From a virus: a stretch of 40,472 nucleotides of DNA. Positions 9,394 to 40,472 of the stretch are shown here, piece after piece. Within the stretch, counting starts at the first letter, position 1. Each line of letters starts with the position of its first letter. The translations under genes were made by a program, and so were the position numbers. The notes beneath the pieces were generated by a model, which was not told the DNA's origin, did not search any database, and saw only the letters and a program-made list of their open reading frames with translations. Location: the IMG/VR virus record IMGVR_UViG_3300038441_000527, positions 1 through 40,472 of that record; one strand, given 5' to 3'.

Positions 9394-9849
9394 ATGGATG
9401 ACATCAGCGTAACAGGCCTTTCGCTCACCATTACCGCGAGCGAAACCTTTCCCAACGGTTTCACCTTCACCGACTTCGCGGATGATGCCGACCCGTTCGA
9501 CATGCCAGCTTTGGTTATCGCCGCAACTGCCATGAACGTGAATGGTTCGTTGGTCACTTGGAGCGCCCCGGCGCCCATCCTACCGACCATCAACGCCATT
9601 CCTGGCAGCCCAGGCGACAACAACCTGTCGATTCTGTTTGAGGCCAACCGCCCAGCACAGGGCAAGCGCATTGCCCGTGACGTTATTACTATCGTGGGCA
9701 ACTACCCCGATGGCTCTACCGTCACCCTGAGCAAAGGCAAGATGCTCAGCGGTGCGCCTGGTAAGTCCGCAGCCAGCGCAGGCCGCTTGAAGTCCAAGCC
9801 GTATGCGTGGGCATTCCAAGATATCGCAGTCACGCGAGCGCCTGAATGA
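9394..9849 (+). CDS. Tail tube protein (DUF3277)
   Basis: 151 aa directly after the sheath gene. The sequence SLTITASETFPNGFTFTDFADDADPFD near the N-terminus, the GSPGDNNLSILFEANRPAQGKRIARDVIT core and the C-terminal PYAWAFQDI match DUF3277 by pattern, a tube protein that stacks in hexamers inside the sheath. The conserved DADPFD turn and the PG-DN loop are the clearest marks. It overlaps the tail chaperone gene by four bases. Confidence 0.8.
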   Translation: MDDISVTGLSLTITASETFPNGFTFTDFADDADPFDMPALVIAATAMNVNGSLVTWSAPAPILPTINAIPGSPGDNNLSILFEANRPAQGKRIARDVITIVGNYPDGSTVTLSKGKMLSGAPGKSAASAGRLKSKPYAWAFQDIAVTRAPE

Positions 9850-24341: not shown

Positions 24342-25490
24342 TCAGCTGATTACCATCATACCAGCAGCAACCAGACTTTCGTCAGTCTGCCCTGCTGCGT
24401 GCCACTGCTCGCGGGTATAACCTTGGGCGGATGGCGTCATGGTGTAGGTGCGCTGTGGCTGCGCGATGGGTTGGGTAAACGCCTGCGGCTGCGCGATTTG
24501 CGGTTGTGGCGCGGCCATTGGGGCCATCTGCGGCTGAGGTGCCGGTGCCTGCATCTGCGGCGCCATACCCATAGGCTGCGGTGCAGGTTGGGGTTGTGGC
24601 ATCATCTGTGGCTGTGGAGCTGCCATAGGTTGTGGCTGTGGAGCTGGCGTAACCGGGGCCGGCTGGCTGATGGTCATCATGCCTTTGGCGACCAGGGCCT
24701 CATCAGTCCACCCCTGACCGTGGTACTGCTCACGGGTGAAGCCCTGGGCTGCCGCAGTCATGGTGTAGATCGGCGCAGTGGCCATGGGCTGCGGTTGAGG
24801 CGATGGTGTGCCTGGCATCGAGGCGCTGGCCACGGGGGTCATGCTCATGCCGGCAGGCACATAGCCAGCGGTCGCGGGTTGGGCAAACATGGTGTTGGCA
24901 TCCGGGCCATTCTGGATCTTTGGGCCGTGGCCGACCAGCTGCACGCCGTCCGGGTTCATGAAAAGACCTGGCTTGGTGTTCTGGCCAGGCTGCCAGCCGT
25001 TGCCGGTGAAGTCCAGGCTCACACGGACGTACTTGCCGGTGTGAATGTGTTCTTCATCGGTGATGATGGCGTTGTTGTTCAGGCCGTCGTAGCAGCGCAT
25101 TTGCCCCGCTTCAGTCTTGACCTTGACGATCCAGTGCCCCGCGAAGCCTTCCTTGTTACCGTGAGGCTGCCCGTTTTGATCAACGCCATCGCCGTCAACC
25201 AGCTTGATGGCGAAGTCGCTACGGCTGCAACCGAAGTTCGGCAGCGTCGGCTGCACACCTTGAGGGAAGAACTGCGGGAAGGACCGGGCCGCTTCTTGCC
25301 AGATTTCGGTAACCATGGCCATGGTATCAGGGTCTTGCTTGCTGAAAGCCACGTTCATGTACCACTGCTGGCGTGGGCCGCTGTTGTCCTTTTTCATCTT
25401 GGGCTGCTTGGTGGTGTCGTCAATGACAGGCCACATTTTCAGCGGGTTGCCCTGGACGATACGACCGATGGGGGAAAGACGTTTAGCCAT
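24342..25490 (-). CDS. ssDNA-binding protein (DUF2815-like) with two C-terminal repeats
   Basis: 382 aa; GGAG eight bases before ATG 25490. Residues 1-200 look like an OB-fold ssDNA-binding protein of the DUF2815 group (T7 gp2.5-type): RIVQGNPLKMWPV, QQWYMNVAFSKQD, DFAIKLVDGDG, KYVRVSLDFTGNGWQPGQ, then LFMNPDGVQLVGHGP. After a Pro/Gln/Met-rich linker come two copies of a 34-residue module, at 242-275 and 349-382, with 24 identical positions (core GYTREQWHAAGQTDESLVAAG in the second). The typical acidic tail of phage SSBs is missing; the repeat ends the protein and may take over protein-protein contact. Confidence 0.72.
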   Translation of the reverse strand: MAKRLSPIGRIVQGNPLKMWPVIDDTTKQPKMKKDNSGPRQQWYMNVAFSKQDPDTMAMVTEIWQEAARSFPQFFPQGVQPTLPNFGCSRSDFAIKLVDGDGVDQNGQPHGNKEGFAGHWIVKVKTEAGQMRCYDGLNNNAIITDEEHIHTGKYVRVSLDFTGNGWQPGQNTKPGLFMNPDGVQLVGHGPKIQNGPDANTMFAQPATAGYVPAGMSMTPVASASMPGTPSPQPQPMATAPIYTMTAAAQGFTREQYHGQGWTDEALVAKGMMTISQPAPVTPAPQPQPMAAPQPQMMPQPQPAPQPMGMAPQMQAPAPQPQMAPMAAPQPQIAQPQAFTQPIAQPQRTYTMTPSAQGYTREQWHAAGQTDESLVAAGMMVIS

Positions 25491-25495
25491 TTTTC

Positions 25496-26614
25496 TTACT
25501 CCTGATTGAACATTTTGTCAGCGTGGTTATCTGCCAGGCGCCGAAGCTTCAGCTTGCCTGGCTTGTGTTGTGTGTAGTTGGCCAGCAGCTCATCAGAGAG
25601 CAGACCTTTTGCTTGCGTTGGCGTGATGAGCGCAATAGGTTTCTTTACTTCCTTGCCGAGCAGCGAAGCCAGAGCGGCGACTTGGGCGTGCACACCTTCG
25701 CGCCAATCGAGCTTTCCCTTGCCGCCACTGCGTTCGAAGTTCGGGTGCACGTACCCTTCGCCGATGGCGTGCTCAAGTTGCGATTCCAACCCGCTTTGCC
25801 TGGACTCCAGAACCTTGATGGCACGGTCAATCCTGCGCAGCTCTGCTGCTGCCTGGTCGTTGGTGAGTTCCAGGCTGTGCTGATCAGTTGACACATCGAT
25901 CAGTTGCAATGCCGCTTTCTGCAATGCTGGGCAGTTGTTGCGTGCCGAGCAGTAGTAACAGTGGTCGCCGGCTGTGAGTTCGCCATTGCCTTCAATTGCC
26001 ACTTTCGCCGCTTGCTTCAAGGTGTGCATGTAGCCGTACAGATTGTCACTGGTTGTACGCCAAACCTTGACCACGTCATGCCCGTAGCCGCGCGGTTGTA
26101 CGATGTACATTCGCACCTTGAAATGCTCGGTGAACTGGCCGTGAAGCGCTTGCAGGAAGTCCAGCGCGCCGCGAACGTAGCACAGTAGCTGCCAGTTTTC
26201 GAACGGGTCTACCGGGTTGTATCCGTACTTCAAATCACCCACATACAAGATGCGGTTGATCGGGTCCCAACCCCAGGCGTCGATGGTGCCGCCACACTGC
26301 GGGTGGATGCTTGGGATTGCCACGGTGTGTTCAAGATACACCTGTACACCCCAGCCCCGGAGCACCGCCAGATACTCGCGTACTGCGCTTTGCATTTCAT
26401 CGTCAATTTCAACCCCGTTCGGGGTCAAGACGCCGTTGGGCTGCGGGCGACCGTTCCCCGTTTCGTACGCCAGCCAGTGCGCGCCAATGCCTTCTTCGCG
26501 CACTTCGTTATCGCCTGGCAGCTCGGGGTAGCGGGTACTCATGCTGACGTACCCGCCGCAACGGACCCACATGCCCGCAGCGCTTGGACGTGCTGTGAAC
26601 TGTGAGTCTGCCAT
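25496..26614 (-). CDS. DUF2800 Cas4/RecB-like nuclease with Fe-S cysteines
   Basis: 372 aa from ATG 26614, which follows the previous stop by two bases. PD-(D/E)XK core: H46, CGGTIDAWGWDP with D112, then LYVGDLKYG with D127 and K129. Cys19 near the N-terminus plus C219, C222 and C228 (HCYYCSARNNC) is the four-cysteine layout of Cas4 and AddB, which bind a 4Fe-4S cluster. It probably trims DNA ends for recombination with the neighbouring ssDNA-binding protein. The C-terminal 140 residues are helical (FERSGGKGKLDWREGV) and not assigned. Confidence 0.8.
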   Translation of the reverse strand: MADSQFTARPSAAGMWVRCGGYVSMSTRYPELPGDNEVREEGIGAHWLAYETGNGRPQPNGVLTPNGVEIDDEMQSAVREYLAVLRGWGVQVYLEHTVAIPSIHPQCGGTIDAWGWDPINRILYVGDLKYGYNPVDPFENWQLLCYVRGALDFLQALHGQFTEHFKVRMYIVQPRGYGHDVVKVWRTTSDNLYGYMHTLKQAAKVAIEGNGELTAGDHCYYCSARNNCPALQKAALQLIDVSTDQHSLELTNDQAAAELRRIDRAIKVLESRQSGLESQLEHAIGEGYVHPNFERSGGKGKLDWREGVHAQVAALASLLGKEVKKPIALITPTQAKGLLSDELLANYTQHKPGKLKLRRLADNHADKMFNQE

Positions 26615-26616
26615 GA

Positions 26617-27558
26617 TCAGCCCGCCGCGTTGATCTGAGCAACGAACGATTGGTACAGCCATGCCACCGCATCAGGACGATTGGCAACCAGCGCGAACTG
26701 GCCGACACCGGCACCGTCTACGATCTGGCACTGACGGCAGAACCACTCAACGTGCTCGGGCTTCAGCTTACCGCCAGCCTCTTCGAGGTTCTGCGCTACC
26801 CACTGGGCCAAGGTCACGTAGTCATGCGGGGCGATCGGCTGAGGCGTGGGCATCGGCGCCAGGGTTGGCATTGGGGCGATTGCGCCACCTTGCGGTGCCG
26901 GGGCAGGTTGGGTTGGCGCAGGCGCGACCGCCAAGGGTTGTTCGGTAAGCCCAGCCGGAGCCGTCGCAACCGGGGCAGGCTGCTGAGGGGCCGGTGAAGC
27001 GGTCACCTGGGCGCCAGGCAACGGCTGGACCACGAAATGGTCCGGCTGCCCAGGCACCGGCACCGCGACTTGATGCGGGTGGTTGGTCGGGTTTCCCAGT
27101 ACGCCACCTGGCGGCAGGCTGGTCGCTGGCGCTGCGGCCATCAGGCTTTGCAGTTCCTTGGTCACGCGGGCATGCTCGTCGGCGTCGCCGCCCTTGCGCT
27201 TGGCCCAGCGGCCATCGGCGTTGGTCTTCTTGCTGCTACTGTGGATGCGCGCATCCCACGGTACGCCGTCCTTATCGAGTACGACACCAGCAGGGGCATT
27301 CGTAGCACCCGCCGATTGTTCCTGTGGAGTAGGGGCAGTCCCAGGGGTGGGCGCGGCGTTTGGGGCTTCAGCGGCCTGGGCAGGGCTGGTCGCCGGGGAA
27401 GGGTGCGATGCGTCGGCGGCAACCGTAGGCGGCGCAGTAGTTGGGGCAGCGGCAGTCGCCGGCTGGGCGTTTCCCGAGGTGCCATAGACGGCAGCAACAG
27501 CCGCCTGCACAGCGGCTTGCAGATCCTTGGCGGGATCGAAGGTAACCGAGATTTGCAT
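26617..27558 (-). CDS. Pro/Ala-rich replication-block protein
   Basis: 313 aa from ATG 27558, with AAGGAAAC upstream. Residues 1-30 start MQISVTFDPAKDLQAAVQAA. Residues about 95-130 contain DKDGVPWDARIHSSSKKTN then GRWAKRKGGD, a short module widespread in phage proteins near ssDNA-binding and recombination genes. Most of the rest is Pro/Ala/Thr/Gln linker. A C-terminal compact part (about 245-313: YVTLAQWVAQNLEEAGGKLK...QFALVANRPDAVAWLYQSF) resembles a small helical domain. It heads the minus-strand operon, so it is made in good amount. Function not known. Confidence 0.6.
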   Translation of the reverse strand: MQISVTFDPAKDLQAAVQAAVAAVYGTSGNAQPATAAAPTTAPPTVAADASHPSPATSPAQAAEAPNAAPTPGTAPTPQEQSAGATNAPAGVVLDKDGVPWDARIHSSSKKTNADGRWAKRKGGDADEHARVTKELQSLMAAAPATSLPPGGVLGNPTNHPHQVAVPVPGQPDHFVVQPLPGAQVTASPAPQQPAPVATAPAGLTEQPLAVAPAPTQPAPAPQGGAIAPMPTLAPMPTPQPIAPHDYVTLAQWVAQNLEEAGGKLKPEHVEWFCRQCQIVDGAGVGQFALVANRPDAVAWLYQSFVAQINAAG

Positions 27559-27580
27559 GGTTTTGTTTCCTTGGTTGGGG

Positions 27581-27609
27581 TTGTGATGTGATGCAAGACT
27601 AAGCATAAT
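27581..27609 (+). promoter_or_regulatory. Candidate promoter for the SF2 helicase block
   Basis: TTGTGA at 27581-27586 and CATAAT at 27604-27609 are 17 bases apart, 42 bases before the helicase start. It faces away from the minus-strand promoter in the same gap, and the two overlap, so one regulator could control both. Confidence 0.5.
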
Positions 27610-27624
27610 TAACGCCGAACGCAA
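27596..27624 (-). promoter_or_regulatory. Candidate promoter for the minus-strand replication block
   Basis: On the minus strand TTGCGT (27624-27619) and TAGTCT (27601-27596) are 17 bases apart. The spacer carries GTTAATTA, matching the GTTAATAA box in the spacers of the 31411 and 33388 promoters. The shared box suggests a common regulator. Confidence 0.5.
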
Positions 27625-27651: not shown

Positions 27652-29421
27652 ATGGCGAACCTTCGAGGGTTCCAAAGTAAAGCGAACAGCGACACCGATG
27701 CAGCGTGGGAACACGGGCACCGTAACGTCATGGTTGTGATACCCACGGGTGGGGGCAAGACGGTTTGCATGGGCGACAAGGCCAGGAATCACAATGGTTG
27801 GGGTGTTTCCATGGCGCACCGCAAGGAGCTGGTTGGGCAGATATCCAAGGCGTTCGCACGCGAAGGGATCGTGCATAGCATCGCTGCGTCGCGGGAAACC
27901 ATCCGCGATATTCAGGACGATCACTTTGACGAATTCGGGCGCAGCTGGATCAACCAGAGTAAGGCCGATTGGACCGTCGCCAGCGTGGATACCGTGATTG
28001 GCAAGAACAGCGATTGGCGCTCCCGGTTCGAACGCTCGACGCTGGGCATCATTGACGAAGGGCACCACTGCCTGAAGAAGAACAAGTGGGGCAAGGCGTT
28101 CAGCTTCTTGCACGCTGATGCTCGCGGACTGCTGTACACCGCCACGCCCTGCCGTGCTGACGGGCTTGGCCTGGGTCGTGACTTTGATGGCATCGTTGAC
28201 CATATGGTGCTTGGGCCCGGCATGCGCTGGTGTATCGATAACGGCTACCTCACGGACTATTACTATCGCGGCATCCACCCTGACGACCTTGACCTGTCGG
28301 ACGTGAAGGTTGGCGCCAACGGTGAGCTTTCCAAAGAGCAAGCCGCTGAAGCCATGCGCAAGTCCAAGTGCATCGTTGGCGATGTGGTGGACAATTACAT
28401 TGAGTACGCCAGTGGCAAGCTTGGGGTGTGCTTCGCACAGAACATCGAGGAAGCGCAAAAGATCACTGACCGCTTCAACGCCTCGGGAGTTCCCGCAGCC
28501 CTGGTTACTGCGGACAATACGCCGACCGAGCGCCGCAACATCCTGCGCAGGTTCCGCAACCGCGAACTCAAGATGTTGGTGAACGTCGATCTGTTCGGCG
28601 AAGGCTTCGACCTGCCGGCAATTGAAATCGTGATCATGGCCCGCGCCACCGCGTCATTCTCGCTGTTCGCCCAGCAGTGGGGGCGTGTGCTGCGCCTGAT
28701 GATTTCCCCGATCCTGGCTGCGGCCTGGGACATGTACAGCCCCGAACAGCGCCGTATGCTGATCGCGCAGAGCGAGAAGCCCAGGGGTATCATTCATGAC
28801 CACGTGGGGAATCTCATCCGGCACCACGGTCCACCCGATCAGGAAAAGCTGTGGAGCCTGGCGAGCCGTGCACGTGGTGGTGCAGACGACTCTATCCCGC
28901 TGCGGGTCTGCGACAACAAGAAGTGTGCGCAGCCGTTCCAGCGCATCAAGCATACGTGCCCCTGGTGCGGTAAGCGCCAAGATCCGCCAGCACCACGCGA
29001 AGGCGGCTACAGCCCGGCACAGCTCGACGGCGACATCTACCTGTACAGCGACGAAGAGTTGCGATTGCTGCGCGTGGCTGCGAACAAGGCTGACGGCCCG
29101 CAGTTCGTACCGAAGCACCTACAAGGCACTGGCCTGGGCGCGAAGATCGCAGCGACGCAAGCGGCATTGCAGCGGGAGCAGCGCAACCTGCGGCACGTCA
29201 TGGACTGCTGGTACGGAACCGTGGCCAAGTCGGACGACATTGAAGCTGGCGCCATGCGGTTCTACCACGCCTTCAAGATTGATGTTCTCGCTGCTATGGG
29301 CCTCAGCGCACCAGATGCCAAGGAGCTGCGTGATCGCATCACGACGAAATTGGCGCTTGACGGGTACGTTATTAATGGCCTACCTTTCCCAGACGAAAAC
29401 CCATCGGAGTACGCAGCATGA
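27652..29421 (+). CDS. SF2 DEAD/DEAH-like helicase with zinc-ribbon
   Basis: 589 aa; ATG 27652 with GAAAGG just upstream. Motifs: I PTGGGKT (31-37), II IIDEGHH (D135, E136, H138), III YTATP (162-166), VI QQWGRVLR (341-348). A four-cysteine site follows, C420 DNKKC425 and CPWC at 436-439, a zinc-ribbon. The C-terminal 150 residues are helical. This is the helicase type that phages use for replication restart, recombination or transcription-linked repair. It is translationally coupled to the next gene by ATGA. Confidence 0.85.
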   Translation: MANLRGFQSKANSDTDAAWEHGHRNVMVVIPTGGGKTVCMGDKARNHNGWGVSMAHRKELVGQISKAFAREGIVHSIAASRETIRDIQDDHFDEFGRSWINQSKADWTVASVDTVIGKNSDWRSRFERSTLGIIDEGHHCLKKNKWGKAFSFLHADARGLLYTATPCRADGLGLGRDFDGIVDHMVLGPGMRWCIDNGYLTDYYYRGIHPDDLDLSDVKVGANGELSKEQAAEAMRKSKCIVGDVVDNYIEYASGKLGVCFAQNIEEAQKITDRFNASGVPAALVTADNTPTERRNILRRFRNRELKMLVNVDLFGEGFDLPAIEIVIMARATASFSLFAQQWGRVLRLMISPILAAAWDMYSPEQRRMLIAQSEKPRGIIHDHVGNLIRHHGPPDQEKLWSLASRARGGADDSIPLRVCDNKKCAQPFQRIKHTCPWCGKRQDPPAPREGGYSPAQLDGDIYLYSDEELRLLRVAANKADGPQFVPKHLQGTGLGAKIAATQAALQREQRNLRHVMDCWYGTVAKSDDIEAGAMRFYHAFKIDVLAAMGLSAPDAKELRDRITTKLALDGYVINGLPFPDENPSEYAA

Positions 29422-30862: not shown

Positions 30863-31381
30863 ATGGCCAATGACACTAAAGCCCTGCTGCTCAAAAAGGG
30901 TTACGAACTGGCTAAGCGGCTTGGTGGGGTTCATCACCTCACCACCCGCAACACCACTGCGCATGCCGGGGTTTATCACCACGGTATCAACCACCATTAC
31001 GGCGGCATTGCTGAGTTCCGGCGCCAGGTTCTGGAGTACGGCGTTAAGCTTGGTACCATGAGCACCGAGGGTAATTCGCTCCCACTGCGCATGTCGCCTG
31101 GTGAACGTCGTAACGCAATCTTGGCTGAAGCATACGCCCAGGCCGTTGAGCACGGTATTGCCAAGGTCACGCGGGTTTCGGTTGCCAACAAGATCGGTGT
31201 GACGGACGGGCTCATCAACCGCTACTTCAAGGGGCGCGACGGGCTGCGCGAAGCTGTCTTGGCACAAGGCGTGGTCAACAGCAATGCTGACATCGTGGCC
31301 GACGCTATCGAGCTGGGGATGCTGACGAACCATGTACCATCCGCACTGCTCGCGGAAGCCAGGAAGCTGCTGGCAGCTTGA
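30863..31381 (+). CDS. Tandem TetR-type HTH regulator
   Basis: 172 aa; GAGGG about eight bases upstream of ATG 30863. Two similar helix-turn-helix modules follow each other: first KALLLKKGYELAKRLGG...TTRNTTAHAGVYHHGINHHY (5-47), second RNAILAEAYAQAVEHGIAK...RVSVANKIGVTDGLINRYF (83-125). Both show the AAxxxGV-x-x-G-x-I-N-x-Y pattern of TetR N-terminal domains, and the second is the better match. The usual TetR ligand-binding half is absent; the protein ends with a short helix. A double DNA-binding domain without a ligand domain is unusual. It could bind spaced or inverted half-sites. Confidence 0.7.
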   Translation: MANDTKALLLKKGYELAKRLGGVHHLTTRNTTAHAGVYHHGINHHYGGIAEFRRQVLEYGVKLGTMSTEGNSLPLRMSPGERRNAILAEAYAQAVEHGIAKVTRVSVANKIGVTDGLINRYFKGRDGLREAVLAQGVVNSNADIVADAIELGMLTNHVPSALLAEARKLLAA

Positions 31382-31979: not shown

Positions 31980-32287
31980 TGTTCGTGCTCATCATGACTT
32001 ATTGCTTGGTTGGCAAACCCTGCGTTGATGAAGCTGTGGCGTACTTCCCACAGTGGGATGTCGGGCAACACATCTGCGGCCTGGCCAAGCCTGCAATCGA
32101 GCAGGGTGTTCGTAAGCGTGCGCCGGCTGGTACTCGCGTTACTTTCGTGTGCCGTGAGGAAGACGACGAACCGCAGTCGGATATCCCGCAAGCCAACCTG
32201 AACGCGCCGAAAGGTGCAACTCTCTACAACGGCACTGACAATGTGCTTGAACAAGCCACTGAATTTATGAGGGCGATCCAGAAATGA
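31979..32287 (+). CDS. Hypothetical small protein
   Basis: 102 aa; TAATG overlap with the previous gene. Not recognised. A hydrophobic N-terminus MFVLIMTYCLVGKPCVDEAV contains two cysteines but is too broken to be a clear signal peptide or TM segment; the middle is alpha/beta (GTRVTFVCREEDDEP). Coupled to both neighbours, so it is part of the same transcript as the ParB-like gene. Confidence 0.55.
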   Translation: MFVLIMTYCLVGKPCVDEAVAYFPQWDVGQHICGLAKPAIEQGVRKRAPAGTRVTFVCREEDDEPQSDIPQANLNAPKGATLYNGTDNVLEQATEFMRAIQK

Positions 32288-33141
32288 AATCCTTTCGCCA
32301 AATGACTGAAGACAAAACCATCCGTCGTGCTGACGCGATGAAGATTCAGCTTGAAGACCTGCATTTCGAAGAGGGGTTTAACCTTCGCGATATGTCGCCC
32401 GATGCTGTTGATGAAGACGGGCAAACCTTCGAAGAGGGTATCGACGAACTCGCCGCGTACATCAAGGCAGGCGGATATGTTCCACCCCTGGAAGTGCGCC
32501 CACGTGCTGAAGGCGGCGTGTACATCGTTGAGGGTCACCGCCGCACCCTGGCCTATCGCAAGCTCGACGCTGCCGGGGAACTTCCGCGCACGCCAAGCAA
32601 GGCGGACCCGAAAGTGTTGGAAGCTTGGATTCCGATCACGGCATTCGAAGGTAATGACGCCGACCGTGTTCTGCGGGTCATGACCAGCCAGCAGAACAAG
32701 AAGCTCAGCCCGATGGCGATTGCTGAAGGTTACCGCCGGCTAAAGGCGTTCGGCTGGACCGAGGCGCAGATTGCAGCCAAGCGCGGAATGAGCGTTGCGC
32801 ACGTCAAGCGCCAGTTGGTTCTGTCCACCGAGGCCAACAGCGACGTACAGACCCTGGTGCGCGAGAACAAGGTGAGCGCCAGCGTGGCCATCGACACCGT
32901 GCAGACCCATGGTGAGAATGCAGGTGCGGTACTTCAGGATGCGTTGGCCACGTTGCCAGAAGGCAAGAAGGTGACCGCTAAGGCCTTGCGCAGTACGCCG
33001 CTGGTCCGCAACGTCAAGGTGTCTGTAGAGTTGTGGGATCGGATCAAAGCGAGCTTTGCGGTGCTGTCAGCTGGCACCGAGCCAACCGAAGAGCAATGGG
33101 CAGAAGCTGACGCCCTGGTTAAGGAAATGGAGGGTGTATGA
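32284..33141 (+). CDS. ParB-like protein with HTH
   Basis: 285 aa; ATGA overlap. Residues 15-130 match ParB N-terminal folds: EEGFNLRDMS, YVPPLEVRP, then IVEGHRRTLAYR with the GHRR box at 84-87. Residues 158-181 form a helix-turn-helix (TEAQIAAKRGMSVAHVKRQL), as in the ParB/KorB DNA-binding part. In phages such proteins are not usually for partition; they may act as DNA-binding regulators or nucleases. The last 60 residues are charged and helical. No partner ParA gene is in the window. Confidence 0.72.
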   Translation: MKSFRQMTEDKTIRRADAMKIQLEDLHFEEGFNLRDMSPDAVDEDGQTFEEGIDELAAYIKAGGYVPPLEVRPRAEGGVYIVEGHRRTLAYRKLDAAGELPRTPSKADPKVLEAWIPITAFEGNDADRVLRVMTSQQNKKLSPMAIAEGYRRLKAFGWTEAQIAAKRGMSVAHVKRQLVLSTEANSDVQTLVRENKVSASVAIDTVQTHGENAGAVLQDALATLPEGKKVTAKALRSTPLVRNVKVSVELWDRIKASFAVLSAGTEPTEEQWAEADALVKEMEGV

Positions 33142-35156: not shown

Positions 35157-35866
35157 GCATTGAACCCAAGCACGTTGTTGGGTTGTCCGGTGGTAAGGAT
35201 TCAACTTGCTTGGCCCTAAAGCTTGTTGAGGATGAACCGCGTAAGTATGAGTTCATTTGCAATACCACCGGTGACGAACTTCCAGAAATGCTGGATCACT
35301 GGAAGCGGCTTGAGGATATGCTTGATTCTTAAATAATTCAGGTTAGGCATTCTCGCAACCTTGATGAAGAGATACGCAAACAGGGGATGCTACCAAGCGT
35401 GTTCGCCAGATGGTGTACTCGTATCCTCAAGATTGAACCTACAATCCGTTATATGGATTCTTTACCCGACGGATCTACGTTGTATGTCGGTTTGAGGGCT
35501 GATGAAGAGATACGACGTGGGATATACGGGGAAGACATATTGATAGATTTCCCACTACGTCGCTGGGGCATGGATGAAGCGGCGGTTTGGAGCTATCTGG
35601 ATAAACGAGGTGTCTATATACCCCAGCGCACCGATTGCGCCAAATGCCCATATCAAAGACTTGGAGAATGGCGCGATTTGTGGAACAACAATCGCGAAAA
35701 ATACATAGAAGCTATACAGCTTGAAGATGAGCACGGTGCTACATTCCGAAGCCCTGGGCGGGATACATGGCCTGCTGACTTGCGATCCCTTGCAGTCCAA
35801 TTTGATTCAGGTAGGAAATTAAGAGAATACAAAAGATCAACCACTTGTAGAGTATGCTCATTATGA
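35153..35866 (+). pseudogene. PAPS reductase / PP-loop gene interrupted by in-frame TAA
   Basis: ATG 35153 overlaps the previous TGA. The frame reads HVVGLSGGKDSTCLALKLVE (PP-loop SGGKDS) and stops at TAA 35330-35332; the same frame then continues without any shift through IIQVRHSRNLDEEIRKQG, ARWCTRILKIEP, TLYVGLRADEE, and DCAKCPYQRLGEW, ending TTCRVCSL at 35866. Together they make one normal-length PAPS reductase/sulfotransferase-like protein with a four-cysteine metal site. The lower GC than neighbours suggests a recent arrival. The stop may be a real lesion, a sequencing error or a read-through site. A restart at ATG 35387 has GGGG just before it but would lack the PP-loop half. Confidence 0.75.
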
Positions 35867-37350: not shown

Positions 37351-39972
37351 ATGCTCAAGACAGCCTTGGCGGGAATGACCGCCATCAATCAGTGGTTTGT
37401 GTGGCGGCTCGCACCCGACCTGAACAGGCCCGGCAAGACCCTCAAGATTCCAGTTCATCCTGATGGCCGCATCGTTTTCCATGAGGGGAAGCTCGTCGGT
37501 ATCAACGCACAAGACCCGGCGAACTGGACTTCCTTTGACGTGGCCCAGCAGCAACTGGGTCAGCACATCGCACGCTTCGACGGTTACCAATACACCCTGG
37601 GTTTCATGTTGACCCAAGACTGTGGCTATTGGTTCCTTGACGTTGACAGTTGTGTGGGCGATCAGTACGCGCTGACCCCGTGGGCGCAGTGGTTCTACCA
37701 GAACCTACCTGGCGCGTTCTTCGAATACAGCTCCAGCGGTCGTGGTATCCACATCATCGGTCGTGGTGCGCCGCCGCCAGGGCACCGTACGCGCCCGACA
37801 CAACATTGGCTTCAGCAGCACCCCGGCAACGATCTGGAGTTCTACACCAGCGGTCGCGGTATCGCTTTCGGCACCAGCGGGCAAGCCTGGGGTTCTGCCG
37901 ACACTCACTTGGCGCCTCAAGCTGAGTACATCGTGGCCAACATCTTCACGCCCGAGGTGTCCACGATGTTGGCGCATCTGCCTGGCGCAGGCCCTCGGTC
38001 TGACTGGCGCGGTCCGACCAACGATGACGACTTGATCCGTCGTGCGTTGCAGTCTCGTAGTGCTGACGGCATGTTCAGCGGCAAAGCCTCATTCGCGGAC
38101 CTGTGGACCTGCAACAAGCCAGCCTTGGCCATGAGCTACCCAGACCCAGACCGAAGCGACGGGCTTACCTACGGCGGCACTGAGGCTGACTTTGCCCTAG
38201 CCTCGCACCTGGCCTTCTGGACCGGCTGCGACGAAGCGCGCATTGAACGCCTTATGTGGCGCTCTGGGCTGGTGCGTGATAAGTGGACCAGTCACCGCAC
38301 GTACCTCAAGGAGCTGACGATTCACCAAGCGTGCCTGCGCACTCGCAACGTGTGCCAGGACAAGGAAGTTGTACAGAAGCTTGAGACGTTGACGACCGCC
38401 GACGCCGCTGTCAGCCGGCAGCAGTATATGGACATGATCCTGTCGTGCAATGAAGACATGCAGCTTCGCAACGACATCATCCCAGTCATTGCGCAAGACC
38501 GGTCTATTGATCATCTTGATCGCGACTTTCTGGCCGCGACGATCAAGAAGCGCCTGAGCGAATGGGGTTTCCCCGTCAGCATGAGCGAGTGTAAGGCCAT
38601 GGTGCGGTTCACCGTGACCGAGGACGAAGAGGGCGGGATCATCCCCGAGTGGGCCAACAGGCACGTGTACGTGATGAACCATGATTGCTTCTTTGACCTG
38701 GCCAGCGGCACCACCATAAGCCGCGCTGCGTTCAATGCTCAGTACGACCGCATGATGCCGCAGAAGGCTAACGGCGACCGTGAGGAAGCCGCTAAATGGT
38801 GCCTTCAGCGCTGGAACACATCGACCGTCTACGACTACATGTACTTCCCTGGCGAAGAACCCATGTTCAACCGCGAAGGCCGCTGGTACTGCAACCTCTA
38901 CAGCCCTGCCAGCGTGCCTGAAGTCGCGTTGGCCTATACCCAAGGTGGCATCGACGCCATCGACGCCTTCCAGCGCCATATGCGGGCCTTCTGCGGCCAT
39001 CGGCAGGAGGTATACACCAACCTGTTCGACTGGATGGCCTGGGTGGTGCAGAACCCCGGCAAGAAGTGCCGCTATGCGCCGCTGCTGAAGGGCATCCAGG
39101 GTGACGGCAAGACGATGATCATCAGCGCCATACGGGCAGCCATGGGCAGCGCCAACGTGCGCAGCATCAACAACAGCCTGCTGACTTCTGACTTCGGCGA
39201 CTGGCAGGAAGGCAGCTGCGTCGCCGGCATTGAGGAAATGATGCTCACGGGGCGCCGTCGCTATGACGTGGCCAACAAGCTGAAGGAACCCATTGCCAAC
39301 CGTATGCTGACGATCAACCGGAAAGGGCGTGTGTCTGGCGCCGACATCATCAACGTGACCAACTACATCGGCTTCACGAACTTCGTGGACGCGGTGCCGC
39401 TGGAAGACAGTGACCGTCGGTGGTGGGTGATCTTCTCCCCGTTCACCAGCAAAGGTGCTCTGGCAAACGCCATGGGTATGAACCTTGATCAGCTGTTCGA
39501 AACCTTCGGCCTGATCTTTGACAGTATGGAAGATGGGCGCCGGGGCGAGTGGCGCAAGTTCTTCCTTGATTACCAGATCAGCCAGAACTTCCACCCGAAC
39601 CGCGATGCGCCGCAGACTGCTGAGAAATCTGAAATGCGTGTTAGCGGTGAAGATGTCCACGAGGCGGTGGCCCGTCAGTGCATTGAGCAAGGCGCGGTCG
39701 GTGTTGGCACCAGCGTGCTGTCTTCCAGCTGTCTCACAGCTGCAATGCGCATCGTGTGCATGGCTGATGGCATTGAGCTGCCCAAGACCACCAGCGTTAA
39801 CCACATGCTTACCCGGATGGGTTACAGCCAGGTTCCCCAGGTGGTCAAGTGGGATAACAAGGCGCATCGTGTGTGGTGGAAGCGCGGGGAGGTGGTGGAC
39901 GACAGCAACGACGTCCTGCGGTCGATGCTGGAATTGACGAAAATTCAGCATGGTTCCAAGGTAGGTTACTAG
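37351..39972 (+). CDS. Primase-polymerase / SF3 helicase replication protein
   Basis: 873 aa; AAGG ten bases before ATG 37351; ATG 37375 is a weaker alternative. Residues 1-200 look like an archaeo-eukaryotic prim-pol: FLDVD (D97, D99), SSGRGIHIIGRG (about 128-139), LEFYTSGRGIAFG (about 161-173). Residues about 270-320 (TYGGTEADFALASHLAFW, ERLMWRSGL) match the helix-bundle domain of NrS-1-like polymerases. The C-terminal half is a DUF5906-type SF3 helicase: Walker A GIQGDGKT (581-588), GIEEMM Walker B region, then TNYIGFTNFVDAVPLEDSDRRWW. This is the main replication initiator-type protein, with the candidate origin just downstream. Confidence 0.83.
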   Translation: MLKTALAGMTAINQWFVWRLAPDLNRPGKTLKIPVHPDGRIVFHEGKLVGINAQDPANWTSFDVAQQQLGQHIARFDGYQYTLGFMLTQDCGYWFLDVDSCVGDQYALTPWAQWFYQNLPGAFFEYSSSGRGIHIIGRGAPPPGHRTRPTQHWLQQHPGNDLEFYTSGRGIAFGTSGQAWGSADTHLAPQAEYIVANIFTPEVSTMLAHLPGAGPRSDWRGPTNDDDLIRRALQSRSADGMFSGKASFADLWTCNKPALAMSYPDPDRSDGLTYGGTEADFALASHLAFWTGCDEARIERLMWRSGLVRDKWTSHRTYLKELTIHQACLRTRNVCQDKEVVQKLETLTTADAAVSRQQYMDMILSCNEDMQLRNDIIPVIAQDRSIDHLDRDFLAATIKKRLSEWGFPVSMSECKAMVRFTVTEDEEGGIIPEWANRHVYVMNHDCFFDLASGTTISRAAFNAQYDRMMPQKANGDREEAAKWCLQRWNTSTVYDYMYFPGEEPMFNREGRWYCNLYSPASVPEVALAYTQGGIDAIDAFQRHMRAFCGHRQEVYTNLFDWMAWVVQNPGKKCRYAPLLKGIQGDGKTMIISAIRAAMGSANVRSINNSLLTSDFGDWQEGSCVAGIEEMMLTGRRRYDVANKLKEPIANRMLTINRKGRVSGADIINVTNYIGFTNFVDAVPLEDSDRRWWVIFSPFTSKGALANAMGMNLDQLFETFGLIFDSMEDGRRGEWRKFFLDYQISQNFHPNRDAPQTAEKSEMRVSGEDVHEAVARQCIEQGAVGVGTSVLSSSCLTAAMRIVCMADGIELPKTTSVNHMLTRMGYSQVPQVVKWDNKAHRVWWKRGEVVDDSNDVLRSMLELTKIQHGSKVGY

Positions 39973-39973
39973 T

Positions 39974-40016
39974 GTTACAAGCTGGGGTAGCTTGTAACCC
40001 CAGCTAAACCCTTGTT
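39974..40016 (+). terminator. Overlapping hairpins after the primase
   Basis: Two stems share sequence: GTTACAAGCT (39974-39983) with AGCTTGTAAC (39989-39998), and GCTGGGGT (39981-39988) with ACCCCAGC (39997-40004). They cannot both form. The second is followed by CCTTGTTTTT, so it can act as a terminator; the first would prevent it. This is an anti-terminator-like layout, or simply an operator with two GTTACAAG sites. Confidence 0.55.
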
Positions 40017-40076
40017 TTTATTGACTTTTATTTATAAAGGTTACAAGTTACAAGATAAAACAGATTGGTCGTCGCA

Positions 40077-40133
40077 GGTGGGCATATTTCTATATGGCCA
40101 TATGCCACCATCATAATATATGTATATGGTGGC
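40077..40133. other. AT-rich palindrome cluster
   Basis: ATATGGCCATAT (40092-40103) is a perfect palindrome. GCCACCAT (40104-40111) and ATGGTGGC (40126-40133) are inverted around an AT-rich 14-base loop. GGTGGGCATAT (40077-40087) and ATATGCCACC (40100-40109) also pair with one bulge. Alternative folds share the same bases. An AT-rich, palindromic stretch between iterons is typical of a DNA unwinding element. Confidence 0.6.
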
Positions 40134-40142
40134 GGCTGCGGT

Positions 40143-40171
40143 TTGACATGCTTGTAACCTAGTAACCTAAT
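40143..40171 (+). promoter_or_regulatory. Candidate promoter for small terminase, iterons in spacer
   Basis: TTGACA at 40143-40148, then CCTAAT at 40166-40171, 17 bases apart. The spacer contains CTTGTAAC and most of TAGTAACC. A protein bound there would block the promoter. Two more TTGAC boxes occur next to iterons (40021 TTGACT before GGTTACAAG, 40218 TTGACC before CTGTAACC). Confidence 0.5.
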
Positions 40172-40243
40172 CGCTGGAAGCCGCGTGGTTACTGGGCTGG
40201 AGGGGGTTACAAGGCTTTTGACCTAACCTGTAACCCGGCTTCG

Positions 40244-40376
40244 TAAATTTTGAAATTGGGGCTGAAATTCCGCAGCGTGGCCAATTTCGTGAATTTTGGG
40301 GCTGAAATTTGAATTTTGAATTTCGGTGTGAATTTTGGGACAGCTTGAATTTTTGGATTTTGAGCTGAAATTTTGA
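40244..40376. repeat. AT-rich short repeats before small terminase
   Basis: The stretch is a chain of GAATTTT, GAAATT and AATTTTG units. TTGGGGCTGAAATT occurs twice, at 40256-40269 and 40296-40309, exactly 40 bases apart, with a third partial copy GAGCTGAAATT near 40362. The spacing and the runs of T and A suggest bent DNA. No convincing gene is seen here on either strand. In many phages sites of this kind serve terminase recognition. Confidence 0.6.
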
Positions 40377-40418
40377 AAATCAGGTAACAAGCAGCGTTGG
40401 TGCGGAGGAAAATTTGAG

Positions 40419-40472
40419 ATGAGTAAAAAAATCAGCAAGAAGGAAATTGAATTTGCCAAGGAGTACGCAGAG
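40419..40472 (+). CDS. Start of a cut gene, probably terminase small subunit
   Basis: Strong ribosome site GGAGG (40404-40408) about ten bases before ATG 40419. The visible 18 residues, MSKKISKKEIEFAKEYAE, match the opening of many small terminases (basic start, then a helix of the k.e.Fa.eY type). The gene runs off the right edge. The small terminase binds the packaging site and starts DNA loading into heads. With the large terminase tail at the left edge it gives the circular order terS-terL-portal. Confidence 0.6.
   Translation, partial: MSKKISKKEIEFAKEYAE

Follow-up and report, generated by a model that had tools for sequence, protein, structure and literature searches.

A candidate iteron origin in full-size tailed phages, probably read by a predicted winged helix of the adjoining primase-polymerase

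Where does a replicon that relies on a PrimPol-helicase of the NrS-1 kind begin to copy its DNA? The literature offers a proposed pair of 8-mers for NrS-1 and a stem-loop for pRN1. The window analysed here, 40,472 bp of an IMG/VR virus record (IMGVR_UViG_3300038441_000527), raises this question at a 446-bp gap (39973-40418) between the stop codon of its PrimPol gene (39972) and an ATG at 40419 that is preceded by GGAGGA. An original prediction, made from the letters of the window, saw in this gap a candidate origin, packaging site or terminase control region. Sequence comparison and structure prediction lead us to the view that its repeat array is probably the phage's replication origin, laid out like the SaPI/PICI origins but carried by full-size phages, and that the PrimPol would recognise it through its own predicted winged helix.

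An exact search recovers the six perfect GTTACAAG sites that had been noted in both orientations, four forward and two reverse, with no further exact copy outside the gap across the 40,472-bp window. The gap also contains ten GTTAC cores, and 2000 dinucleotide shuffles of it gave a maximum of one GTTACAAG and four GTTAC. Near-matches (GTTACTAG, GTTACTGG, GTTACAGG, and GTAACAAG), one of whose cores overlaps the end of the PrimPol gene, bring the array to about eleven GTTAC cores, forming about eleven sites in two orientations across 270 bp (Table 1). Two sets can be distinguished, whose inner iteron pairs are separated by a 96-bp spacer of moderate AT content; the AT maximum (80%) sits within the left iteron set and not in this spacer, and a T/A-rich tract occurs at the equivalent place in relatives. 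The palindromes of the original prediction are represented by a 12-bp perfect palindrome, ATATGGCCATAT, at 40091-40102, and its AT-rich short repeats are likewise present. Only in the window is the gap lengthened by these C-poor repeats, AAATTTTGAAATT and TTGGGGCTGAAATT; in close relatives the terminase begins about 120 nt earlier. The suggestion that the repeats are bent DNA is not supported because their A/T tracts lack phasing at 10-11.5 bp, with 89% of shuffles as good.

Table 1. Features of the initiator gene and of the repeat array that follows it (positions in the window).
Feature	Position	Strand	Basis
Initiator: NrS-1-type PrimPol (AEP core) with HBD, SF3, and C-terminal winged helix	37351..39972	+	Pfam, phmmer
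Predicted winged-helix origin-reading domain, aa 769-844	39655..39882	+	AlphaFold2 model; 18/27 variable positions follow repeat type
Iteron variant GTTACTAG	39965..39972	+	overlaps PrimPol gene end
Iteron GTTACAAG	39974..39981	+	exact match
Iteron GTTACAAG, conserved left reverse position	39991..39998	-	exact match; geometry in relatives
AT-rich tract separating the left reverse iteron from the forward tandem, candidate melting site	40012..40039		80% AT in 40013-40052
Iteron GTTACAAG, forward tandem no. 1, 7-bp pitch	40040..40047	+	exact match, geometry
Iteron GTTACAAG, forward tandem no. 2	40047..40054	+	exact match, geometry
Central spacer (palindrome, hairpin), where unwinding or loading may occur	40055..40150		fold z -5.2 (40060-40150)
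Iteron GTTACAAG, reverse tandem no. 1, 8-bp pitch	40151..40158	-	exact match, geometry
Iteron variant GTTACTAG, reverse tandem no. 2	40159..40166	-	near-match
Iteron variant GTTACTGG	40188..40195	+	sequence, GTTAC core
Iteron GTTACAAG	40206..40213	+	exact match
Iteron variant GTTACAGG	40227..40234	-	near-match
AT-rich, C-poor short repeats, AAATTTTGAAATT type	40240..40382		no counterpart in close relatives
Outlying variant GTAACAAG	40384..40391	+	near-match
Beginning of downstream gene, truncated at contig end; small terminase from synteny	40419..40472	+	ORF here in relatives is PHROG 51, terminase small subunit

The gene upstream of the array had been described as an SF3 helicase gene; the SF3 domain is present, but Pfam and phmmer identify the protein as a PrimPol-HBD-SF3 chain and not a plain helicase. 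Its N-terminus aligns to the NrS-1 primase-polymerase structures, phmmer matches the NrS-1 primase (7rr4/6a9w) and CTR (6k9e/6k9c) structures, and the Pfam matches are PF22763 (3.7e-18) and PF19263 (1.7e-12). The helix-bundle domain (HBD) spans aa 277-334 and the SF3 AAA+ helicase, of the DUF5906 type, aa 579-690, so that AEP core, HBD, and SF3 lie in one chain as in other NrS-1-type PrimPols. The C-terminal region has no credible match in Pfam, and its profile has no sequence match in the PDB. An AlphaFold2 model made from a 20-sequence alignment predicts here a winged helix (pLDDT >90) with the order helix-strand-helix-helix-wing, whose recognition helix would lie at about aa 813-822 and wing at about aa 825-844. 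None of the solved structures matches this fold significantly, the best being an Orc1/Cdc6 heterodimer on origin DNA (E = 0.0067); the predicted viral structures that it matches include NrS-1-like helicases and PrimPols. Related winged-helix C-termini were found in L022, L029, L030, L045, L188, L212, and L246.

An array of the same geometry occurs at the same place in phages whose PrimPols are 31-71% identical to that of the window. Ten IMG/VR contigs have PrimPols at 68-71%, here called the close relatives, and other PrimPols reach down to about 30%. In the window and its relatives the array begins at the PrimPol stop, immediately after the gene for the SF3 initiator, as in SaPI/PICI-type origins. 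One or two reverse sites are followed by a forward tandem with a 7-8 bp pitch, a gap of about 70-115 bp, and a reverse tandem whose pitch is mostly 7-8 bp and in some relatives 12-14 bp. The expectation that relatives would carry the same 8-mer at this place held in part: the exact 8-mer is often missing, which the original prediction would have counted against itself, and another 8-mer stands there in the same arrangement. The repeat is GTTACAAG in the window, L004, L005, L008, L140, L066, and L068; GTTACAGG in L009, L069, L071, and Silvanus; GTAACAGG or GTAACARG in L002, L010, and Psp6; GTCACAAG in L007; GTCCCAAG in L003, L006, and L011; ATTACAG in L063; and CTCTCAGG in L072 and L106. Each locus has four to eight exact copies of its own repeat and no more than two of another type, so that the repeats switch in concert. 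The switch is not total, since L003, L006, and L011 keep GTAAC at two sites. Many more distant NrS-1-type PrimPols have no array, and repeats 3' of L097, L103, L107, L109, and L111 were rejected as iterons, being in-frame pentapeptide-repeat coding sequence, GCGGACCTT. A search of bacterial genomes for close relatives returned none with a single-protein query and partial matches only with a profile.

The GTTACAAG repeat is not confined to this PrimPol family. In unrelated contigs, dense GTTACAAG arrays adjoin SF3 genes whose primase domains are of other kinds (PriCT_2 PrimPol, VapE, and D5_N), and the GTTACAAG tandem marks SF3 genes (16 of 24 array loci versus 2 of 17 others, p = 0.0006). Among viral contigs, 41 contain GGTTACAAGTTACAAG and 69 contain GGTAACAGGTAACAGG, whereas two comparable 16-mers occur in 13 and 5. 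This association with diverse SF3 genes argues against a parS-like partition cluster bound by a ParB-like protein, a reading that we consider very unlikely. A ParB-like gene with an HTH (32284-33141) is indeed present in the window and has homologues in most of the close relatives examined, but tblastn found no ParB homologue in the stretches around the arrays of Psp6, Silvanus, and L063.

The SF3 core is nearly invariant among the ten close relatives, while the last 170 residues are variable and group by repeat type. In Mantel tests on these ten sequences, with five repeat types, repeat type correlates with the region from aa 700 to the end (r = 0.47, p = 0.0045) and is not tracked by the PrimPol domain (r = -0.12) or the SF3 core (r = -0.22). 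Within the winged helix, 18 of the 27 variable positions follow iteron type, being constant within types and different between them, and 11 of these 18 lie in the recognition helix and wing; before aa 691, the figure is 10 of 200. The permutation p of 0.0005 for the winged helix is the safer figure because a Fisher test ignores relatedness. The linker (aa 691-767) likewise follows repeat type. On the DNA side, iterons diverge less than spacers within a type (0.104 and 0.176) and more than spacers between types (0.375 and 0.320); this excess between types reverses the usual pattern of binding sites and would follow from joint change of site and reader. A natural chimera, L011, is L009-like to aa 400 and then identical to L006, and its iterons are of the L006 type. 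Taken together, the covariation suggests that the iterons are recognised by the C-terminal domain of the initiator. Two candidate contacts were considered. A wing Thr, found in two GTAAC lineages (L002/L010 and Psp6), is missing in L188 and L212, which have GTAACAGG, and was rejected as an amino-acid code; a Lys-to-Trp change in the wing occurs where the first repeat base is not G (L063, L072, and L106), in two lineages only.

Since winged helix and array adjoin, joint inheritance contributes to this covariation, and the terminase travelled with the array in the L011 chimera. The small terminase gene adjoins the array equally, yet it has no covariation signal among the ten sequences and five types (r = -0.18, p = 0.89). 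The same result bears on the earlier proposal of a pac or cos site, or terminase control, in which the small terminase would bind repeats beside its own gene. That gene does come immediately after the array in the close relatives of the window, and it is also the next gene in L140 and L065. The array does not stay with it, however: an endolysin gene comes next in Silvanus, L066, L067, L071, and L072, and the terminase of Psp6 lies about 1 kb beyond the array. Packaging is thus a highly improbable function of the repeats.

The array might alternatively be an operator through which a repressor, a TetR-like protein, or the PrimPol itself controls the late genes or the terminase. Its intergenic place upstream of a gene would suit such a role, a TetR-like protein with a TetR-type HTH match (PF00440) is encoded in the early gene region of the window (30863-31381), and autoregulation by the PrimPol is compatible with origin function. 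Unlike a promoter operator, the array spreads about eleven sites of both orientations over 270 bp, in a fixed geometry that is retained despite changes of the downstream gene, and the repeat sequence tracks the PrimPol C-terminus; we therefore judge control of transcription to be unlikely as the explanation of the array.

Between the inner iteron pairs of the window lies a strong hairpin (40060-40150, z = -5.2) that includes the palindrome ATATGGCCATAT. It could be argued from this fold that the origin is read by its shape, with the repeats merely forming hairpin arms: pRN1 depends on a stem-loop downstream of its PrimPol gene, and AEP-SF3-winged-helix proteins have been proposed to assemble at stem-loops (PMC4234260). 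The hairpin is absent (z about -1 to +1) in all five relatives tested (L002, L004, L006, L008, and L009), while their iteron geometry is kept, and a conserved central hairpin or pRN1-type stem-loop origin was accordingly rejected; we find such a reading scarcely credible. The initiators themselves are similar, ORF904 of pRN1 and the BIP-1 protein having a PrimPol, an SF3 helicase, and a C-terminal winged helix, and an origin region that lies downstream of the gene (PMC4234260). The difference is that stem-loop recognition is proposed there, whereas here the iterons and not the hairpin are conserved. For phage BIP-1, a stem-loop has been proposed and no iteron origin reported (PMC4234260). In its sequence (L251, AY526909), an AT-rich stretch is bordered by inverted pairs of the 9-bp AAACGAGGC spaced at a pitch of 9 bp, some 460-570 nt downstream of the end of the replication gene.

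An iteron origin read by the initiator has its closest likeness in the SaPI/PICI origins, where the origin, with its short iterons in two sets, follows immediately after the gene for the SF3 initiator and a C-terminal domain of that initiator is the reader (PMC7581432; PMC6092414); here, the reader is predicted. In SaPI Rep and Cch2, the C-terminal domain reads iterons just 3' of their own genes (PMC7581432). Unlike those elements, the present ones are full-size tailed phages that have a portal and a terminase, and their initiator is an AEP PrimPol of the NrS-1 type. The layout of the origin is PICI-like and the element itself is not a PICI, that is, not a helper-dependent satellite; the window reads as a phage because it encodes a portal protein and its relatives a small terminase. 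NrS-1 polymerase shares a homologous PrimPol core, HBD, and SF3 helicase, although the protein of the window exceeds it by 155 aa and has the predicted winged helix at its end. The proposed NrS-1 origin consists of two copies of TTTGGTTA (PMC7102993), a motif that occurs once in the window, at 9510, far from the array, and was rejected as its origin motif since the array has none. The alpha protein of satellite phage P4 also combines primase, SF3 helicase, and winged helix in one protein that binds origin repeats (summarised in PMC4234260), but its primase is of the Toprim class.

These parallels allow initiation to be pictured, with iteron binding by the winged helix, ring loading, melting, and priming drawn from the precedents of SaPI Rep/Cch2, the PICI origin, and pRN1 ORF904. 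Each subunit would contact a single iteron through its winged helix. Two SF3 rings may be seated on the forward (40040-40054) and reverse (40151-40166) pairs, facing one another over the 96-bp spacer; melting driven by ATP would begin in AT-rich DNA, and the PrimPol domain could then prime, and perhaps extend, on the opened strands. The candidate origin of the original prediction is well supported by a same-place array behind the SF3 initiator gene in relatives and by repeats that track the C-terminal domain of the initiator; GC skew, which had been put forward as a check, was uninformative, with no origin-type minimum at 40 kb.

As neighbours, the C-terminus of the initiator and the origin could be exchanged or re-keyed as one cassette. 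Whether winged helix and iterons have repeatedly been re-keyed or exchanged as such a specificity unit across a large group of PrimPol-SF3 phages, while SF3 core, spacers, and neighbours stay similar, appears to us evenly balanced. If so, the process would be comparable to the diversification of plasmid incompatibility, it may let co-infecting phages avoid cross-initiation, and comparison of the natural types could give a winged-helix recognition code. The locus offers a precise, testable candidate origin, ties the SaPI/PICI origin plan to full-size phages, and supplies natural initiator/origin pairs of differing specificity, including the L011 chimera, for direct tests of recognition. Within the open-licence literature, two things are new, the setting beside a PrimPol and the joint switching of iterons and winged helix; an earlier description elsewhere is possible.

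Other replication genes lie elsewhere in the window. An Enc34-like ssDNA-binding protein (weak match), a DUF2800 protein, and an SF2-type helicase are encoded at 24342-27624 (-) and 27652-29421 (+), and no separate DNA polymerase was found among the window ORFs scanned. The window starts (1-81) just before the portal gene and ends (40419-40472) inside the putative small terminase; it therefore appears to lack the large terminase and to represent an incomplete genome. In Psp6 (L166, 4620-4650), the PrimPol is annotated as two overlapping primase genes, which suggests a frameshift or sequencing error. A phosphoadenosine phosphosulfate reductase-like gene (PHROG 424) lies at 35387-35866 of the window.
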